Below, one piece after another: positions 36,691 to 50,517 of a DNA stretch of 64,000 nucleotides. Origin of the DNA: Micromonospora sp. NBC_00389. Its GTDB lineage: Bacteria > Actinomycetota > Actinomycetes > Mycobacteriales > Micromonosporaceae. Position 1 is the stretch's first letter. Every line of letters begins with the position of its first letter. Location: assembly GCF_036059255.1 (NCBI RefSeq), contig NZ_CP107947.1:2542001-2606000 (forward strand), given 5' to 3'. Made by a program: the position numbers and the translations under genes. Under the pieces are notes generated by a model. That model worked only from the letters and a program-made list of their open reading frames with translations. It was not told the origin of the DNA and made no database searches.

Positions 36691-37066
36691 GGGGGTGACT
36701 GGTTTCGACTTCGTACGCAGCGACAGGGGAAGCGAGCCGAGGAAGCCGACGTCGTCTCGAGAATCGGTCGTCGGAAACTTATAAGCGCCAAGAACAATCG
36801 CGCTGACTTCGCTCTCGCCGCCTGAGGCGAGTAGCTAAGTCTGTCGGCCTGGGAACGCCTTCGTCCCAGTAGCCGGCATCAGCTAGAAGGCTGGCCAATC
36901 GGACCCGGTCGCGGGGTCCGTGCGGCGAGATTAATCAGCGACTGGGCCCGTCACACCAACTTGCTCGCGTGAGCGGTGGGGCCGAGTAGAGGCACAGCGA
37001 GCTGCGCTCGGAGAAGCCCTGACAAACCGGCGAAGGACCCGGGTTCGATTCCCGGCACCTCCACCA
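36691..37066 (+). ncRNA. ssrA: Transfer-messenger RNA (tmRNA)
   Basis: The 5' end GGGGGTGACTGGTTTCGAC and 3' end GACCCGGGTTCGATTCCCGG then CACCTCCACCA are the two halves of the tRNA-like domain; GGGGGTG pairs with CACCTCC and CCA is encoded. The tag-reading frame is GCC 36787 to the stop TGA 36823-36825, giving the peptide AKNNRADFALAA. The gene follows smpB, as expected. The exact 3' base may be off by one. Confidence 0.96.
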
Positions 37067-42992: not shown

Positions 42993-43065
42993 GGGGCCGT
43001 GGCGCAGCTGGTAGCGCACCACACTGGCAGTGTGGGGGTCAGGGGTTCGAGTCCCCTCGGCTCCA
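42993..43065 (+). tRNA. tRNA-Ala (anticodon GGC)
   Basis: The 73-nt cloverleaf is complete: acceptor GGGGCCG/CGGCTCC, D arm GCGC-AGCTGGTA-GCGC, anticodon arm CCACA-CTGGCAG-TGTGG with anticodon GGC, and T arm AGGGG-TTCGAGT-CCCCT. CCA is not encoded. Its 3' 42 nt are part of the left attachment repeat of the element that follows. Confidence 0.95.
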
Positions 43066-43071
43066 CCCTTG
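43024..43071 (+). repeat. Left attachment repeat (attL) within tRNA-Ala
   Basis: The 48 bp starting CTGGCAGTGTGGGGGTCAGG and ending CCACCCTTG are identical to 48028-48075. They run from the anticodon loop through the 3' end of the tRNA and 6 nt beyond. Confidence 0.85.
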
Positions 43072-43086
43072 AAGCAGGCGACACAG

Positions 43087-43125
43087 ACGCCCTGGTCAAC
43101 ACCGAGACGGTGAAGGCCAGGGCGT
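43087..43125 (+). terminator. Present terminator of tRNA-Ala (element-borne)
   Basis: ACGCCCTGG and CCAGGGCGT form a 9-bp stem, with CACCG/CGGTG pairing inside. It lies inside the element, so it must have arrived with it or formed on integration. Confidence 0.65.
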
Positions 43126-43172
43126 TCGTCGTTCCACCCTCTACCCGGTCGACATGCCAGATCCATGCCAGA

Positions 43173-43301
43173 TCATGTGTCGGCGCGTCCTCTCGCTTCC
43201 TGAATGAGCGCATCCAGGGCAGCGGCGATTGCATGGTCTCGGTCACGCGTCGCGTGTTGGTAGATCATCGCCGCCCGAGTGCTGGAGTGCTTAGTTCCGC
43301 T
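43173..43301 (-). pseudogene. Tyrosine recombinase/integrase, C-terminal remnant
   Basis: The last 42 codons survive: SGTKHSSTRAAMIYQHATRD, then RDHAIAAALDALIQEARGRADT and TGA. HSSTRAAxIYQHAT is the classic integrase C-terminal signature, containing the last part of box II and the nucleophilic tyrosine (IYQH). A stop codon at 43302-43304 and loss of all upstream catalytic residues show that the gene is truncated. Confidence 0.85.
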
Positions 43302-43362
43302 TCAACGTCTGACACGGCTGACGGTGCTCCGGGCGTGGCACCCGCCCTGACGGCGGCCCACG

Positions 43363-43898
43363 TTACGGGTCCGGTAGCTCGTTCGGGTCTGCGATGAGCG
43401 CATCTAGCTGTTCGACACGTCGTCGGAGCACTCTGGCTGCGACCGGTGGCAAGGCACGCATGGCGAGGTCCAGGACCCGACGATGATCGAGGGGGTCTGG
43501 ACAGCATGAGGGCTGGCCACAACCTCGCATCTCTGACCTCTGCTGCCGAGATGCGCGAACGTACAGCTTCCAGCCCTGTAGGGCCTCGGCGACCGCGCCA
43601 GGGTGTAGGCGTGACCGCTCGAACTGGGCAATGTCGGACTGACCTCGGCGAGGAATGCCAGGAACGACTGCGATCCGTTCTCCGGGCCGTGGTTGCCGAC
43701 GTAGGCCTGCCCGGATCTGCCCTGATGATCTACGAGGCACGGCTCTTTCGGGTTGTCGACATGAACTCATGAACCCACGGACCTCGGTCGTAGCGGGCCG
43801 GCTCGGCTCGGGGCAGGTCGACGAGGACCAGGGCCAGGCCGTCACCAGGCCGTCGGAGGTCGATCGTGAGTGACCAACGATGACCACTGGTGAGGACA
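43363..43898 (-). pseudogene. Frameshifted remnant of an unidentified gene
   Basis: Protein-like segments occur in succession in different minus-strand frames: HRWSLTIDLRRPGDGLALVL, then DLPRAEPARYDRGPWVHEFM, then ERAVPRR and FLAFLAEVSPTLPSS in other frames. It closes with FERSRLHPGAVAEALQGWKL, QQRSEMRGCG and VLDLAMRALPPVAARVLRRR up to a stop at 43363. At least three frame changes are needed to read one product of about 175 residues. I do not recognise the family; the ending LRRRVEQLDAL is typical of actinobacterial hypothetical proteins. Confidence 0.6.
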
Positions 43899-44137
43899 TC
43901 TGTCCAGGTAGCAGGACGTGTTCGGCCTGATCACCAGCCCGGCCGGGTCCGCCTTACCTGTAGTTGGTGAACTGATGACCCTGCCTCGGAGATTACCGAT
44001 GGCGGGATCGTCGACCGCTGGACCGCTCCCAGGTCTGATGCAGCGCCGGTCGGCCGAAGGCCCTGAAGATGTCTCCAGCACCCCGTACGAGCAAACTTCA
44101 CCCGGTCCGGGTGAGGTCGAACCGCAGGTCAAGGGCG

Positions 44138-44143
44138 TAGCGT
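44138..44143 (+). promoter_or_regulatory. -10 element TAGCGT (leaderless start)
   Basis: TAGCGT is 7 nt before ATG 44151 with no RBS, favouring this start. Confidence 0.45.
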
Positions 44144-44150
44144 CCGGGTC

Positions 44151-46313
44151 ATGGTGCTGGAGCGTCCTACCCCGGCCAATCCAATGCCGACCAAGCCGCA
44201 GGACCCGGCACGCCCTGGCGCGCAGGCGCGGGCCCTGCCCCCGGAGCTGGGCTCGAACGCGATCGCCGTGGTCAGCGGTGCCACCTTCATGTACTCGGAT
44301 CCGGCCGGCGACGTCCCGCCCGGCACGATCGGCGGCCTGGTACACCGGGACACCCGCCTGCTCAACCACTGGGTGCTCACCATCGACGGCCAACGCCTGC
44401 TCGTGCTGCGCTCCAGCGTGGTCGACCACTACTCGGCGCAGTTCTTCCTGACCAACCCCGCGCTGCCCCAGCTGCCGGCGAACACCATCGCTGTCCGTCG
44501 GCTGCGCTACCTGAGCGACGGGTTGCACGAGCGGATCGAAGTCGCCTCCTTCGCCACCGAGCGGGTCCGGTTCGAGTTGCGCCTCGAGGTGGGCAACGAC
44601 TTCGCCGACATCCTCGAGATCAAGACCAACGTCCGCGACCGGTCGGAGCGGATCCAGCGGCGGCACGCGCGAGACGGCTCGCAGCTGGTGTTCAGCTACG
44701 AGCAGGACGGCTTCACCGCGGACACCCGGGTCCGGTCGACCCGCCCGCCGCAGCGGCTGGAGGGCGACCACCTGGTCTGGGAGATCGACCTCGGACCGCG
44801 CGAGCAGTGGCAGGTCGACCTCAAGGTGCCGGTGCCGCCCGGCATTGGCATTGGGGTGACCGAGCCGGTCCGGGGCGATATCGCCGACGTCTTCCACCAC
44901 CGGGTGGAGGATCCGGCCGCCCGGTGGCTCGCCCGCGCCGCCGAGCTGACCAGCGACCACCTGGTGCTGGAGCGGGCGACCGCGCAGACCCGCTCGGACA
45001 TGTCCGCGCTGCGGCTGGAGATGGAGGTGGGGGAGGAACGGATCAGCCTGCCGGCCGCCGGCATGCCCTGGTTCCTCACCATCTTCGGCCGGGACACCCT
45101 GATCACCTCGTACCAGGCGCTCACCTTCGGGCCCCGGATGGCCAAGGGAACCCTGCTGGCGCTGGCACATCACCAGGGCCGGCAGTGCGAGGACTTCACC
45201 GACGAGGAGCCCGGCAAGATCCTGCACGAGGTCCGCTTCGGTGAGCTCACCCAGCAGGGACTCATGCCGTACAACCCCAACTACGGCACCGCCGACGCCA
45301 CCCAACTCTGGCTGATCCTGCTGTCCGAGTACTGGCGCTGGACCCGCGACGACGACCTGGTCCGGTCGCTCCGGGACAACGCACTGGCGGCGGTGAACTG
45401 GATCGACCGGTACGGCGACCGGGACGGCGACGGCTACGTCGAGTACGCCACCCGCTCCCCGGAAGGGCTGGGCAACCAGTGCTGGCGAGACTCCTGGGAC
45501 GGGGTGCGCTTTGCCGACGGACGGATGCCGGTGCTACCGATCGCCACCTGCGAGATCCAGGGCTACACCTACGACGCGAAGCTACGCCTGGCGGAACTCG
45601 CCGACGGGCCGCTGGCGGACCCGGCCTTGGCGGACCGGCTGCGCGCCGAGGCGTACCGGCTGCGCGAGAGGTTCAACCGGGACTTCTGGATCGAGGGGCG
45701 GGGCGGCTACTACGCCGTCGGCCTCGACGGCGACAAGAACAAGATCGACTCCATGACGTCCAACCTGGGGCACCTGCTGTGGAGCGGCATCGTCCCGCAG
45801 GAACGCGCCGCCGCGCTCGCCCGGCAACTGCTCTCCGAGGACATGTTCAGCGGCTGGGGGATCCGGACGCTGTCCCGGGCCGACGCGCCATACAACGCGC
45901 TCGGATACCACCTCGGCACGGTCTGGCCGCATGACAGCTCGATCAGCGCGCTGGGCCTGGCCCGATACGGCTTCCGCGACGAGGCTAACCGAGTGGCCCT
46001 CGCCCTGCTCGACGCCGCCGCCGAGTTCGGCGACCGACTGCCGGAGGCGATCGCCGGCTACCCGCGCGAGCGGACCCTCGACGCCATCCCGTACCCGACC
46101 GCCTGCAGCCCCCAGGCCTGGGCGTCCGGCGCCCCACTGAACCTGATCCGCACCATGCTGGGGCTCCACCCGGTCGACGGCCAGCTCGTCGTCGACCCGG
46201 CGGTGCCGCACGAGGTCGGCCGGATTCACATTCGCGGCATCAGCGCGTTCGGCCACCGCTGGGACGTCGAGGCCGTCGGCTCGGAGGGGTACGTGCGGCT
46301 CGCCGCCGATTGA
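44151..46313 (+). CDS. Glycogen debranching N-terminal domain / amylo-alpha-1,6-glucosidase-like protein
   Basis: This 720-residue protein has an N-terminal GDE_N_bis beta domain (GGLVHRDTRLLNHWVLTIDG; LEVGNDFADILEIKTNVRDR) and a C-terminal (alpha/alpha)6 barrel (PAAGMPWFLTIFGRDTLITS; QGLMPYNPNYGTADATQLWL; ALGYHLGTVWPHDSSISALG). The likely acid residues are in FGRDTLI and the NYGTADATQLW segment. Family members act on alpha-glucans or trehalose-like sugars, but the substrate is unproven. Codon use is host-like. It lies inside the tRNA-Ala element and is followed by a truncated oxidoreductase. Confidence 0.88.
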   Translation: MVLERPTPANPMPTKPQDPARPGAQARALPPELGSNAIAVVSGATFMYSDPAGDVPPGTIGGLVHRDTRLLNHWVLTIDGQRLLVLRSSVVDHYSAQFFLTNPALPQLPANTIAVRRLRYLSDGLHERIEVASFATERVRFELRLEVGNDFADILEIKTNVRDRSERIQRRHARDGSQLVFSYEQDGFTADTRVRSTRPPQRLEGDHLVWEIDLGPREQWQVDLKVPVPPGIGIGVTEPVRGDIADVFHHRVEDPAARWLARAAELTSDHLVLERATAQTRSDMSALRLEMEVGEERISLPAAGMPWFLTIFGRDTLITSYQALTFGPRMAKGTLLALAHHQGRQCEDFTDEEPGKILHEVRFGELTQQGLMPYNPNYGTADATQLWLILLSEYWRWTRDDDLVRSLRDNALAAVNWIDRYGDRDGDGYVEYATRSPEGLGNQCWRDSWDGVRFADGRMPVLPIATCEIQGYTYDAKLRLAELADGPLADPALADRLRAEAYRLRERFNRDFWIEGRGGYYAVGLDGDKNKIDSMTSNLGHLLWSGIVPQERAAALARQLLSEDMFSGWGIRTLSRADAPYNALGYHLGTVWPHDSSISALGLARYGFRDEANRVALALLDAAAEFGDRLPEAIAGYPRERTLDAIPYPTACSPQAWASGAPLNLIRTMLGLHPVDGQLVVDPAVPHEVGRIHIRGISAFGHRWDVEAVGSEGYVRLAAD

Positions 46314-46364
46314 GCGCCCCGACCCGCACGTTTGTCTCGGGTGTCGGCGGGAATGGCACCGGAC

Positions 46365-46433
46365 ATGACGAAACCTCGTGTGGTGATCGTGGGGGCCGGG
46401 TTCGCCGGTTACCACGGCGGGAGTCAGCAGTGA
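46365..46433 (+). pseudogene. N-terminal stub of an NAD(P)/FAD-dependent oxidoreductase
   Basis: ATG 46365 opens with MTKPRVVIVGAGFAGYH, a textbook dinucleotide-binding beta-alpha turn (GxGxxG). After 17 codons the match ends, and the frame closes five codons later at TGA. The rest of the gene, normally about 400 codons (NDH-2-like), is missing. This marks a deletion or insertion junction near position 46415. Confidence 0.75.
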
Positions 46434-46859
46434 GTCAGCAAATTGGCTGGCTACGCGACGACAACGGGCGGAAGAAGCGAGACAGCCGCCGTGCATGAGA
46501 GCACGAGACGACGCTGATTGACACCCGCTGACTACCACGACCAGGCTCCCCCGACGGGGGTCGGCGCCGCGCACAGCAGAGAAGTACAGCAACGAAGCCG
46601 GCCGTACCGCACCCCTGCCGACCGGTACAGCCCGCCTGACCTCGGACGCAACCGCACCAGAAGCCGCTGCCAGCAGTTCGGGACGAAGCGGTCCGTGCCC
46701 GATCCGCGCCCGACGTGTGGTCAACAACGGTCAGCAAGGGCACCTCGGCCATCCGTCCGGCCACTACAAGTAGTCACCCCACCCGATCAGGCGCCCGGGG
46801 ACGAGAGCGAAGAGTGTTGACCAATGCACCTTCCAAACTGAAGGTCGTATCGTCTGCGC
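46434..46859. other. Noncoding or decayed DNA within the element
   Basis: I find no gene here. The base composition is less GC-biased at third positions in every frame than in neighbouring genes. It ends with the promoter of the next small gene. Confidence 0.4.
46848..46853 (+). promoter_or_regulatory. -10 element TATCGT (leaderless start)
   Basis: TATCGT lies 6 nt before ATG 46860; TTGACC at 46817-46822 is too far (25 bp) for a standard -35. Confidence 0.4.
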
Positions 46860-47252
46860 ATGAGCGAGGACGCCTTCGTCTTCCCGGCCATGCCAAAGGT
46901 CGATGTCGTTCGGCTCCTGGGCGTCCTTGCCGAGACTCAGCCGGGCGAATGGGTTGCACCGGGGCCAGTCTTCGTCTGGCTGGCGGAGGAGGACCGCGAC
47001 TTGTACGTCGACTGGGAGCCCCAGATGGTGGCGACACTGGAGCGGGCTGTCGGACAGCGGCCCACCTGGGCGGTCCAGATCAACTACCGAGCTTCGTGCC
47101 GGGACGAGATGATGACGCTGACTCGGGCGTTGATGCGGTCGGGCGGTGTGGCGGTAGACGACTTCGTGGACCACGTCTGGACAGTCGAAGAGATCGCGGC
47201 CGATGCCCTCGTCCGGAGTGGCAGGTTCGGCGAACCGCCGGTACGGCGGTGA
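46860..47252 (+). CDS. Hypothetical protein within tRNA-Ala element
   Basis: This 130-residue acidic soluble protein begins MSEDAFVFPAMPKVDVVRLL and contains WLAEEDRDLYVDWEPQMVAT and DDFVDHVWTVEEIAADALVR. There is no signal peptide or membrane segment. I do not recognise the family. GC and codon bias are below host level, which suggests recent acquisition with the element. Being small, acidic and in a mobile setting, it could be an immunity or accessory protein, but nothing proves that. Confidence 0.6.
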   Translation: MSEDAFVFPAMPKVDVVRLLGVLAETQPGEWVAPGPVFVWLAEEDRDLYVDWEPQMVATLERAVGQRPTWAVQINYRASCRDEMMTLTRALMRSGGVAVDDFVDHVWTVEEIAADALVRSGRFGEPPVRR

Positions 47253-47451
47253 TCACCAGGTGGTAGGTAGCAGCGGCCGCGTGCTGGCGGGCCGCACAAA
47301 GAGGCGGGTGACCAACTCGGTGACGATCGGGACAGACGCCAGCGGACGAGCGGGGACCGTGATGGACGGTTCCAGCAGTTCAATCCCCATGAAGCGCCAG
47401 GCCAGAGCGCCGTGTTGGTTGCCTGGGGGTCACGGGGTCGATGACGGTCGG

Positions 47452-47457
47452 TAGGCT
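47452..47457 (+). promoter_or_regulatory. -10 element TAGGCT (leaderless start)
   Basis: TAGGCT lies 6 nt before GTG 47464, with no RBS. Confidence 0.45.
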
Positions 47458-47463
47458 GATCGA

Positions 47464-47883
47464 GTGCACGGGGCATCACCGGACGAGCTTCTAGAGCTGG
47501 ACATCGTGGACCGGCTCGGCATGACTACGAACTCAACCGTCGCCATCTATAACGCTGTCCCAGCGCGGGTCGTCCTCACGAGGGCCAGCCTTGTCTTGGA
47601 GGCGGAGGGCGAGGACTTGCTCGTCTGCCTTATTGGCATACGGCGACAGTTGGAAGCCGAGGGACTCAATCTCTGCTGCAAAGGAGCGCGGCCGGACGTC
47701 TGGCCGTCCGGCCAGCTCAGGCAGTTCACCAACGGTCGTTTCGGATACGTCCTGGCTCCGCCTTCTATGGGTGACAGGCCCGAAGAGGTCGACATGTTCG
47801 CTGCGGCCGGCGCCAAGGAGATCGGCACCGTCGAGGAGCAGCGTGAGGCGGTCTCCCGGTTCCATGGCTTGCGCAAGCCGTAG
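47464..47883 (+). CDS. Hypothetical protein within tRNA-Ala element
   Basis: This is a 139-residue soluble protein. Recognisable stretches are TTNSTVAIYNAVPARVVLTR, EGEDLLVCLIGIRRQLEAEG, LRQFTNGRFGYVLAPPSMGD and EEVDMFAAAGAKEIGTVEEQ. There are three cysteines and no signal or membrane segment. The family is unknown to me. Its codon use is clearly less GC3-biased than in flanking chromosomal genes. It is the last gene before the right attachment repeat. The 211 bp before it hold no other gene. Confidence 0.6.
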   Translation: MHGASPDELLELDIVDRLGMTTNSTVAIYNAVPARVVLTRASLVLEAEGEDLLVCLIGIRRQLEAEGLNLCCKGARPDVWPSGQLRQFTNGRFGYVLAPPSMGDRPEEVDMFAAAGAKEIGTVEEQREAVSRFHGLRKP

Positions 47884-48027
47884 ACGACGAGCCGCAGAGG
47901 TTCCGGTGTGCCAAATCCGTGCCAGGTCAACCGGTGACGCTGGGGGGCTGACGGGGACTGGCGGAGTGATCTGAGGCTCTGCCGCAGGTCAGCGCTCCGC
48001 CAGGTCAGGAGAGTTCGAGAGATCCCC

Positions 48028-48075
48028 CTGGCAGTGTGGGGGTCAGGGGTTCGAGTCCCCTCGGCTCCACCCTTG
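48028..48075 (+). repeat. Right attachment repeat (attR)
   Basis: This is an exact 48-bp copy of 43024-43071, that is, the 3' part of tRNA-Ala(GGC) without its 5' half. Confidence 0.85.
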
Positions 48076-48082
48076 GTTGTGC

Positions 48083-48124
48083 AAGCCAATCGGCACCAGT
48101 CAATTGACTGGTGCCGATTGGCTT
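48083..48124 (+). terminator. Probable original tRNA-Ala terminator, displaced
   Basis: A perfect 42-nt palindrome (21-bp arms starting AAGCCAATCGGCACC) ending in TTTT lies 8 nt beyond attR. Before integration it would have followed tRNA-Ala directly. Confidence 0.75.
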
Positions 48125-48178
48125 TTCGTCGACATGTGGTTCGTACCACCACGTGCCGAGCTGCGATTCGAGTCCGTT

Positions 48179-49300
48179 TCAGAATCCGATGGCTTCGCGG
48201 AGCAGCAGGACGGTGCCGCGCCCGGGATGGGGTTCTGCGTTGAGGACGAGCAGGCGGTTGATGGCGCTGGGCTGCCCGTATGCCACCTGGGCGCGGGCGC
48301 TCTCCAGCGGGAGGGCGTGGTCTTCGAGGCGGCGCAGCGCGGTGTCCAGGTCGGGCACCACCTTCTGCGCCCCGACGATCCAGATCGCGCGGGCGGCGCC
48401 GCCGGCGTAGGCGGGTAGTTGGCTTCCGCTGGCCGAGGCGACCACGAGGGAACCGGTTGCGGTGAGCGCGGCGACGCTTCCCACCACGACGTCGGGGCTG
48501 GCGAGCAGCCGCCGGATGTCGTCGGCACCGGTGACGCGGTCCATGGCCAGTACATGCGGCTTGACGGCCTGATACCGCCCGCTGGTGTTGATGGCCTCGT
48601 CGATGCCAGACAGGCGGAGGGTCTCGCTGGCCGCGGTGAAGACGCTGGCGCCCTCGGGTATCAGATCCTCGATGCGCGCACGGGCGGCGGCGGCGTCGTC
48701 GAGGATCTCGACGGTGAAACCATGTGCTGTCAGCGCAGTCGCAGCCCGTTCCAGGAGCTGCGCGGGTGCCGGGTCAGCGAACATCGTTGCCGGAATCGGG
48801 GTGGTCATGGTGCCTCCTGGGCTGGACGCGGTGACAGTGGCTTCGGGTGCCGAGCCCGCCAGTGGAGTGGTGTCGAGGTACCTGACCTCGTAGACCCGCT
48901 CGGTGAACCTCCAGCCGTTCGGGGTGCGCTGGCATCGGTCGTGGTAGATGGCGTAGTTCAGTCCCTGGCGACCGTCGAGGGTGCGCGCGAGCTCCTGGAT
49001 GTAGGCGCGGCCCGTCGCGGTGTCGCCGTCGAGTTGGATCGTGCCCGAGTGCGTGGTCTGCACGAAGACGTCCCACTGGGCCTGCAGCCGCTCGCCTCCG
49101 GCGCGGATCTCCTCCCGGCCGACCAGTTCGGCGGGGATGTTGGGCATCCGCAGCGCGCCGTCCGGCGTGAACAGCGACGCGAGGCGGGTGCGGTCGCGCA
49201 TCATCGCCGCGTCGGTAAACTCGCCGCGCAGCGCCTCGATCTCGACGCGATCCGCGATGGCCTGAAAGTCACTCTTCGGCTCCTCTTGCCTCCCTGTCAC
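48179..49300 (-). CDS. NTF2/SnoaL-like domain fused to LUD (LutC/YkgG) domain
   Basis: This is a 373-residue open frame. Residues about 8-145 form a SnoaL-like cone fold (IADRVEIEALRGEFTDAAMM; SLFTPDGALRMPNIPAELVG; HSGTIQLDGDTATGRAYIQE). Residues about 165-373 form a LUD domain as in lactate-utilisation LutC (RIEDLIPEGASVFTAASETL; DVVVGSVAALTATGSLVVAS; GARAIWIVGAQKVV-like AARAIWIVGAQKVVPDLDTA). An internal ATG at 48808, preceded by a perfect AGGAGG, begins a 209-residue protein equal to a stand-alone LUD protein. The locus may therefore make a fusion, a separate LUD protein, or both. No lutA/lutB genes are near. It is divergent from a SigJ-type sigma gene. Confidence 0.8.
   Translation of the reverse strand: MTGRQEEPKSDFQAIADRVEIEALRGEFTDAAMMRDRTRLASLFTPDGALRMPNIPAELVGREEIRAGGERLQAQWDVFVQTTHSGTIQLDGDTATGRAYIQELARTLDGRQGLNYAIYHDRCQRTPNGWRFTERVYEVRYLDTTPLAGSAPEATVTASSPGGTMTTPIPATMFADPAPAQLLERAATALTAHGFTVEILDDAAAARARIEDLIPEGASVFTAASETLRLSGIDEAINTSGRYQAVKPHVLAMDRVTGADDIRRLLASPDVVVGSVAALTATGSLVVASASGSQLPAYAGGAARAIWIVGAQKVVPDLDTALRRLEDHALPLESARAQVAYGQPSAINRLLVLNAEPHPGRGTVLLLREAIGF
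48813..48818 (-). promoter_or_regulatory. Internal Shine-Dalgarno AGGAGG
   Basis: AGGAGG on the minus strand sits 4 nt before an in-frame ATG at 48808, inside the fusion gene and exactly at the domain boundary. It is among the strongest RBSs in the window, indicating separate initiation of the LUD part. Confidence 0.7.
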
Positions 49301-49457
49301 ATCGAGCCCGGCGTACGACGCCCGCTGGATGGTGAGTTCGTCTCAGCAGTACGACAATGCAGCCCCGCGAAATGTGAGGCGACGCCAACCTCACAATTCG
49401 GTGCGCTGTCTTGTCGAACTGGTGAGAGCCGCTGCGACCGAGGGAGTCGGCGACACC

Positions 49458-50438
49458 ATGGCCACCCGATCCGAACCAGGGCACGCCCGACCCGATCCGG
49501 GCCTGAGCGCGATCATGAGCGAGCGGCGCCAACTGATCAACCTCGCGTACCGGCTCCTCGGCTCCCTGGCCGACGCCGAGGATGTCGTCCAGGAAACCTA
49601 CGCGCGCTGGTATGCCATGCCGCAACAGCAGCAGGAAGCCGTCGAAACCCCCGGCGCCTGGCTGACGACGGTCGCCAGTCGCATCTGCCTCAACCTGTTG
49701 GGTTCGGCACGGGCCCGGCGAGAGACCTACGTGGGCGAATGGATCCCGGAGCCGCTGCCCGAACGTACGGAGTGGAACAGCGGGCGGTCGGACGGCAGCG
49801 CCGTCGACCCGGCCGACCGGGTCACCCTCGACGAGTCGGTCAACATGGCCTTCCTCGTCGTGCTCGAATCGATGACCCCGGCCGAGCGCGTCGCGTTCAT
49901 CCTGCACGATGTCTTCCGCTACTCCTTCGCCGAGGTGGGCGAGATCGTCGGCCGTACCCCGGCGGCATGCCGGCAGTTGGCTTCCTCAGCCCGCCATCGT
50001 GTTCGCGCGACGCAGGCTCCCGCAACCCCGACAGCCCACCAGACCGGCATCGTCAGGGATTTCAAGCGGGCATGGGAGGCCAAGGACATCCATGCCCTCA
50101 TCGGCCTCCTCGACCCCCACGCCACGGCGACTGGCGACGGTGGCGGCCTCGCCAGCGCCGCGCCCTGCCCGATCGAAGGTGGCGAGCAGATCGCGCGCTA
50201 CCTCGTGGGCCTCGCCGGCAGGGCAACCAACGTGACGATCCTGGAGCGTACGGTCAACGGCCAGCCCGGTCTGGTGGCCCTGCAGGACGGCATCACCGTG
50301 GCGGTGTACGCGTTCGACTTCGTCGGTGACCGGATCACGCGCCTCTGGGCCGTACTGAACCCCGAGAAGCTCCGGCCCTGGCACGACGGTTCCCACCCTG
50401 GCCATGATCACGTTGGTGGTCCCACAAAGATCAGTTAG
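49458..50438 (+). CDS. sigJ: RNA polymerase sigma factor SigJ-type (ECF41-like) with NTF2 domain
   Basis: This 326-residue extracytoplasmic-function sigma factor has sigma2 (MSERRQLINLAYRLLGSLAD; AEDVVQETYARWY; GAWLTTVASRICLNLLGSAR), sigma4 (LESMTPAERVAFILHDVFRY; SFAEVGEIVGRTPAACRQLA) and a C-terminal SnoaL/NTF2-like domain of about 110 residues that controls activity in this group. No anti-sigma gene is adjacent, as expected for ECF41. ATG 49458 is chosen; the frame is open to 49329 but the extra residues look noncoding. The divergent gene also carries an NTF2-like domain. Confidence 0.88.
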   Translation: MATRSEPGHARPDPGLSAIMSERRQLINLAYRLLGSLADAEDVVQETYARWYAMPQQQQEAVETPGAWLTTVASRICLNLLGSARARRETYVGEWIPEPLPERTEWNSGRSDGSAVDPADRVTLDESVNMAFLVVLESMTPAERVAFILHDVFRYSFAEVGEIVGRTPAACRQLASSARHRVRATQAPATPTAHQTGIVRDFKRAWEAKDIHALIGLLDPHATATGDGGGLASAAPCPIEGGEQIARYLVGLAGRATNVTILERTVNGQPGLVALQDGITVAVYAFDFVGDRITRLWAVLNPEKLRPWHDGSHPGHDHVGGPTKIS

Positions 50439-50517
50439 CCGTCGCCGCGAATCCCGGCCACCCCGACGTCGAACCTTTGCCGCCCCGCGTCCGTACCACT
50501 GCGCGGGAGGTCAAGCC

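Follow-up and report, generated by a model that had tools for sequence, protein, structure and literature searches.

Probable remnant of an integrative and conjugative element at the tRNA-Ala(GGC) gene of Micromonospora sp. NBC_00389

A 64,000-nucleotide stretch of the Micromonospora sp. NBC_00389 genome (NZ_CP107947.1, positions 2,542,001–2,606,000; hereafter the window) carries a 5-kb element at its tRNA-Ala(GGC) gene. The element is very likely an actinomycete integrative and conjugative element (AICE) that inserted at this tRNA and decayed to a remnant resembling a cis-mobilizable element (CIME). An earlier reading, made from the sequence alone, had proposed that an integrative element of tRNA-Ala had decayed here and that its integrase was destroyed, and the exact pair of attachment (att) sites, the AICE-type ends and an integrase stub of 38 codons bear this out. 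The genomes of the genus that were compared are denoted by G-numbers, with one genome per species and 160 genomes in the genus-wide counts; the window belongs to contig C1 of G000, a single-contig genome of 7.87 Mb.

Att repeats and the two ends of the element

The tRNA and the two ends comprise the following features.

42993–43067, plus strand: tRNA-Ala(GGC), the integration target (ARAGORN); its 3' part is probably element-derived
43024–43071, plus strand: attL-type identity block of 48 bp, tRNA-proximal, exact repeat
43087–43125: hairpin (inverted repeat) just inside attL, not called by the terminator scan
43155–43176, plus strand: left pair of TGCCAGATC-type direct repeats, predicted integrase arm-type sites, overlapping the stop codon of the stub
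43173–43289, minus strand: integrase stub, the last 38 codons and the stop codon, from protein alignment
47905–48027, plus strand: right end of the element, by similarity to the right ends in G068 and G079
47907–47927, plus strand: right pair of TGCCAGATC-like direct repeats, predicted arm-type sites
48028–48075, plus strand: attR-type displaced tRNA 3' fragment of 48 bp, exact repeat

The att copies are identical at 48 of 48 bases and lie 5004 bp apart (start to start), as the sequence-only reading had described. The identity extends from the anticodon region, at tRNA position 32, to four bases beyond the tRNA end; in the left ends of G068, G079, G170 and G016 it starts at the same base. No third copy was reported in the window when 14 mismatches were allowed, and ARAGORN finds there a single tRNA-Ala(GGC), one transfer-messenger RNA (tmRNA) and no other tRNA. 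Upstream of the distal copy, 22 of 31 bases do not match the 5' half of the tRNA, so this copy is a displaced 3' fragment and not a tandem tRNA; a tRNA array, which the earlier reading had named as a possible objection, is rejected. Nothing was found in favour of an artefact of this kind or of a chance repeat, and such an origin is extremely improbable given full identity with element-type sequence inside both copies, the absence of a second tRNA and the absence of any match in 160 genomes to the 44-base 3' end of the tRNA read backwards.

At the left end, window DNA 43060–43289 matches a 20.2-kb element at the same tRNA in G068, where it aligns with the integrase end at 92% identity. The stub, whose codons occupy 43176–43289 on the minus strand and are followed by TGA at 43175–43173, confirms that an integrase C-terminus lies just inside the tRNA copy. 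It corresponds to residues 341–378 in G016 numbering, including H341 and Y350; the latter we take to be the catalytic tyrosine of the family. Its first 29 residues are identical to the corresponding residues of all five full-length integrases, namely the G016 protein and four others that are 81–91% identical to it. A hidden Markov model (HMM) built from 30 related integrases finds a frame of 42 residues here, for which the alignment gives 38 codons, as its sole match in the segment. At the position of the hairpin, related left ends have comparable inverted repeats (alignment judged by eye).

Four of the five full-length integrases lie directly at tRNA-Ala (G016, G068, G079 and G170), thus providing the intact relatives for which the earlier reading had advised a search; the fifth, in G031, lies at the end of a contig. 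Gene content identifies the G068 element as an AICE: besides the integrase it has an excisionase-family protein, RepSA (Pfam) and an FtsK-domain protein; its NCBIfam matches to RepSA and TraB are below cut-off. The G079 element encodes a Prim-Pol protein. A search of named genomes gave 12 integrase loci, seven of which were scanned for tRNAs. The neighbouring tRNA is tRNA-Ala(GGC) in Micromonospora sp. 15K316, Plantactinospora alkalitolerans and Actinoplanes cyaneus; for three relatives in Amycolatopsis (46–47%) it is tRNA-Gly, and one scanned locus has no tRNA.

The right end resembles the same elements. Over 47905–48075, att included, it is 81% identical to G068 and 77% to G079; with att excluded, matches remain in the 160 bases inside attR, at 74% over 120 bp for G068 (E 3.5e-19) and at 69% over 125 bp for G079 (E 7e-12). 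By sequence comparison, both ends of the window element belong to one AICE family. The paired TGCCAGATC-like repeats at both ends resemble integrase arm-type sites, a role that is predicted. Both left units are found in seven of nine aligned left ends (G171 lacks one, G027 both), and both right units in seven of eight right ends, the exception again being G171; these eight include G111, whose location at tRNA-Ala is not established.

Loss of the integrase and composition of the interior

The interior of the element is made up as follows.

43290–43978: discrete unit of ~689 bp adjoining the integrase stub, 97.8% identical to a unit in G175; probably of insertion sequence (IS) nature
44097–46416, plus strand: probably captured host-type fragment, in which a debranching-enzyme gene is followed by its 3' spacer and by 52 bp of an ndh-like oxidoreductase gene
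44151–46313, plus strand: uninterrupted gene for a 720-aa glycogen-debranching-like enzyme (Pfam GDE_N_bis, GDE_C)
46365–46416, plus strand: first 52 bp of an NAD(P)/FAD-type oxidoreductase gene (by eye), then broken off
46417–46693: dispersed sequence in two pieces, in an order shared with G175 and, weakly, with G068
46860–47252, plus strand: open reading frame (ORF) of 130 aa, without Pfam or NCBIfam match and with related DNA in G162, G132 and G171
47306–47440: dispersed genus repeat, 90% identical to an own copy at G000:C1:4149764
47464–47883, plus strand: ORF of 139 aa, without Pfam or NCBIfam match; at the DNA level 75% identical to G010

Matches to related left ends stop at 43289 (G068, G016, G079, G170, G031), 43290 (G171, G100) or 43286 (G013); that of G032 stops earlier, at 43194. 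The ~689-bp unit begins at this junction. Its counterpart in G175 (C1:1948165–1948854) shares both boundaries and has different flanks. The first 64 bp are 78% identical to a stretch of the NBC_00389 genome that precedes a gene for an IS701-family transposase, and the right ~165 bp are a dispersed genus repeat; 75 of the 160 genomes match part of the unit (E ≤ 1e-5), nearly all within its right part. The unit is probably an internally deleted IS-type unit. The integrase HMM finds no further integrase sequence elsewhere in the att-bounded segment, which points to insertion followed by deletion or replacement.

Cognate integrase was also not found elsewhere in the NBC_00389 genome in searches with the G016 and G068 proteins. 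The former gives no match at E ≤ 1e-60. The latter gives eight at E ≤ 1e-5. One is the window stub, another a fragment at 48% that contains two stops, and the other six are at 24–33% identity. Genes for xis, rep and tra functions were not found in the segment among ORFs of at least 50 aa, by Pfam on the three main interior ORFs or by the integrase HMM. The debranching enzyme is the sole Pfam match of these three ORFs, and no conjugation or mobilisation module is present among them; smaller frames were judged by eye.

The host-type fragment is 73% identical to a locus at 6.03 Mb of the same genome as far as position 46416. Its last 52 bp (46365–46416) are identical at all 52 positions to the start of an intact ORF there (L064:4405–5706; G000:C1:6027654–6027705), which likewise follows a debranching gene. 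The 720-aa protein is 87% identical to the product of a G033 gene (contig C12) in a search of 121 genomes; among the matches listed, other full-length relatives reach at most 70% and one partial relative 73%, and the close relative is in G033 only. Glycogen-debranching-like genes give 1–10 matches per genome in this set.

The 52-bp gene start is an exact duplicate whose end forms a sharp junction next to GAGTCAGCA direct repeats, and was considered as a second attachment site. The 52-mer (≤3 mismatches) occurs in 148 of the 160 genomes, with two copies in G000 only and one in the rest, and several relatives hold it in place behind a debranching gene. A recurrent att role is rejected, as the sequence is doubled in one of its 148 carriers.

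G175 has the two pieces of 46417–46693 in matching order, at 76% and 66%, and the G068 AICE has weak matches to them in its right part, again in that order (62–63%, E 0.001–0.003). No tRNA lies beside the dispersed 46412–46700 sequence in the three carrier loci checked (L170, L171, L117; 14 loci were scanned for tRNAs in all), and an association with tRNAs is rejected. In total, 85 of the 160 genomes match part of 46417–48027, mostly as short scattered pieces among the matches listed.

Base composition varies along the element. GC content is 0.64–0.66 in 43000–44000 and 46500–48000 and 0.68–0.72 in the 44000–46500 blocks, which hold the debranching-enzyme gene, in agreement with the mix of host-like and low-GC genes seen in the earlier reading. 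Outside the element it is 0.70–0.75 on the left and 0.68–0.69 right of attR.

This anatomy suggests a course of events. An AICE of the tRNA-Ala(GGC)-specific integrase family would have inserted by recombination between its own site (attP) and the tRNA 3' part, rebuilding the tRNA at attL and leaving the old 3' part at attR. The ~689-bp, probably IS-derived unit would then have landed in the integrase gene at 43289/43290, where the junction is observed, and an adjacent deletion or replacement may have removed the other ~340 codons together with xis, rep and the transfer genes. The host-type debranching gene with its broken oxidoreductase start, itself directly visible, would have been captured in the interior by some route. 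The remnant would be unable to excise alone. With its two att cores and two predicted arm-site pairs retained, it could be excised by the integrase and excisionase of an incoming cognate AICE, singly or with a tandem neighbour.

Empty sites and the tRNA-Ala(GGC) hotspot

The nearest relatives, G004, G028 and G029, lack the 5-kb element at tRNA-Ala. The distance from the tRNA to the conserved right flank (window 50449–50468 onward) is ~1.2 kb in G004, ~0.8 kb in G028 and ~0.6 kb in G029 versus 7.4 kb in the window. The absence of an empty site from every relative, which would have spoken against the earlier reading, is thus not observed. The prediction that an empty site would consist of tRNA-Ala followed directly by a palindrome fares less uniformly. 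The palindrome in question lies right of attR.

48083–48124: perfect palindrome with 21-bp arms, found by inverted-repeat search

A similar hairpin stands directly behind tRNA-Ala in G001, G003, G005, G012 and G036, as predicted in form; in the nearest relatives other sequence is found there. G003 and G018 have such a hairpin on the right side of their distal att as well. The palindrome is rejected as a scored terminator, since the terminator scan made no call in the region.

Several points weigh against an AICE decayed at this site. A further 2.4 kb right of attR (48076–50466) is also missing from G004, G028 and G029, which means that the right flank has changed too, and with one genome per species the empty sites come from other species. 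The right end of G170, 70% identical with att, is not matched at E ≤ 1e-3 without it, and the values for G031 (69%) and G100 (68%) come from comparisons with att, whose sharing inflates the percentages. For the ~689-bp unit the IS label is a probable one, no full-length IS with both of its ends and a transposase having been found; the sole place with both unit ends, ~1.55 kb apart in G032 (L127), depends on a 24-bp left-end match with an E value of 0.004.

The 48076–50466 interval is a second non-conserved block, encoding a SnoaL/LUD-domain protein and an ECF-type (extracytoplasmic function) sigma factor; G004, G028 and G029 hold YciI-like and L36-like genes (by eye) in its place. On the other side, a tmRNA gene (36691–37066) lies 5.9 kb ahead of tRNA-Ala, and the two are also close together in loci L187 and L192.

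Across the genus, the 44-base tRNA 3' end (≤2 mismatches) is present in 158 of 160 genomes, as one copy in 132 and as two or more in 26; two genomes have none. Twenty of the 26 have at least two copies on one strand of one contig. Eighteen of these 20, all except G178 and G180, were analysed as 19 segments, with G068 contributing two and the three intervals of G085 pooled. In all 18 genomes the proximal copy, and no distal copy, follows a full tRNA 5' half. Judged from these sequences, tRNA-Ala(GGC) is a genus-wide integration hotspot. The att copies of G178 (C2:787040–943194) are 156 kb apart and those of G180 (C4:4034449–4211736) 14 and 164 kb apart, possibly marking very large islands. G085 has four copies within 113 kb (C1:1599222–1712640; L173–L178), that is, three tandem intervals.

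Over 44 bases, 18 of the 21 distal copies are exact and three have one mismatch, in a set of genomes whose selection at ≤2 mismatches favours exact copies. Exact copies being usual at this tRNA, recency cannot be read from exactness, and the fairly recent arrival suggested by the sequence-only reading is not borne out.

A full-length cognate integrase is present in four of the 19 segments (G016, the first of G068, G079 and G170). G085 has another integrase-like frame, four segments (G000, G171, the second of G068, and G086) have fragments only, and ten give nothing at E ≤ 1 by the HMM. A scan for the H-x-L-R ... G-H ... Y motif finds it in G016, both G068 segments, G079 and G170 only. Fourteen of the 19 are thus without a detected full-length integrase, with the proviso that a recombinase far from this family could escape the HMM.

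As we read the end comparison, the segment ends form at least four families. The islands of G018, G066 and G106 (L047, L184, L181) have right ends 97–98% identical over 0.8–1.3 kb and left ends 86% identical. G018 shares its ends with G066 and G106 and differs in the middle, where a methyltransferase-like gene is seen by eye. No tyrosine integrase is detected in these three islands by HMM or motif scan. An integrase hidden in one type-D island end was sought in six frames of 1.5 kb from the distal end of G066 and rejected, with no recombinase and one weak, below-cut-off transposase-associated match.

Could the window element have arisen from two or more insertions in tandem, with loss of the att between them, so that its two ends are drawn from different elements? 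Tandem att copies do exist, not in the window but in relatives (G068 and G085), and in G016 and G032 the left end is of type A and the right end of type B. Both window ends are of type A and each best matches the same relative, G068, which makes a composite improbable.

Another explanation is that the element still moves, being excised and transferred by the integrases of passing AICEs in trans, as the earlier reading had also considered, or in cis, with integrase loss as its normal state and not a sign of decay. The att cores and arm-type pairs retained at both window ends, the majority of segments without a detected integrase, the exactness of most displaced att copies and the recurrence of end families with different middles (G018 versus G066/G106) would fit. 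However, no cognate integrase was found in the NBC_00389 genome, and the interior looks broken, with its 52-bp gene fragment, integrase stub and dispersed repeats, as decay predicts. The selection of genomes at ≤2 mismatches favours exact copies, and a single assembly cannot reveal an excised form. By a strict motif, the arm-type pair is found at six left and four right ends of the 19 segments, so that different integrases would be required for most of the others. We regard continued movement as unlikely. A broader version appears more doubtful still: tRNA-Ala(GGC) of Micromonospora might be a shared dock for islands that mostly lack an integrase of their own, retain their att cores and ends typical of their type, and both persist and spread on the integrases of visiting AICEs, the window element being one such borrower.

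Relation to known elements and meaning

Decay of an inserted AICE, the preferred reading, places the element near CIMEs. The available text of PMC7563491 defines these as att-flanked elements derived from integrative and conjugative elements (ICEs) by deletion and lacking a recombination gene, with a classical size of 1.2–13 kb. The window element has a retained att pair, no functional recombination gene, no conjugation or mobilisation module, cargo, a size within this range, and an ICE origin apparent from the homology of both ends to the G068 AICE. It differs from the CIMEs of that account in being actinobacterial, AICE-derived and at tRNA-Ala(GGC), in keeping a 38-codon stub, and in being solitary and not tandem. 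CIME-type movement by accretion and mobilisation is putative here.

PMC3218068 and PMC3364876 deal with AICEs, including the tRNA sites that they use, their tandem arrays and their remnants; in the text available, a pSAM2-like set consists of int, xis, RepSA and TraB. The window element shares with AICEs its left and right ends, the integrase family and insertion in a tRNA 3' end, but has no detected xis, rep or tra, and its integrase is a stub; it is not an AICE in their sense. An Islander genomic island, as the accessible part of PMC4383910 describes it, consists of a tDNA, a displaced fragment and an integrase gene inside. The window element has the regenerated tRNA and the displaced 3' fragment in the same orientation, but no integrase gene is left, which places it outside that class as well. 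The best label is a CIME-like AICE remnant, a kind already known, in a new place.

CIME abundance is reported for streptococci: the available text of PMC7563491 cites a count of 215 at tRNA-Lys across 303 genomes of Streptococcus agalactiae. A limited literature search, incomplete in coverage and including few subscription papers, found no paper on CIME abundance in Micromonospora, which is weak evidence.

The window element offers a close dissection of AICE decay at a tRNA, in which the enzymes go, and the att cores, the predicted arm sites and one uninterrupted cargo gene stay. Among the 19 hotspot segments analysed, those without a detected integrase outnumber those that bear one, and tRNA-Ala(GGC) of Micromonospora, a genus of harmless soil bacteria, may serve as a setting for testing mobilisation in trans and in cis.

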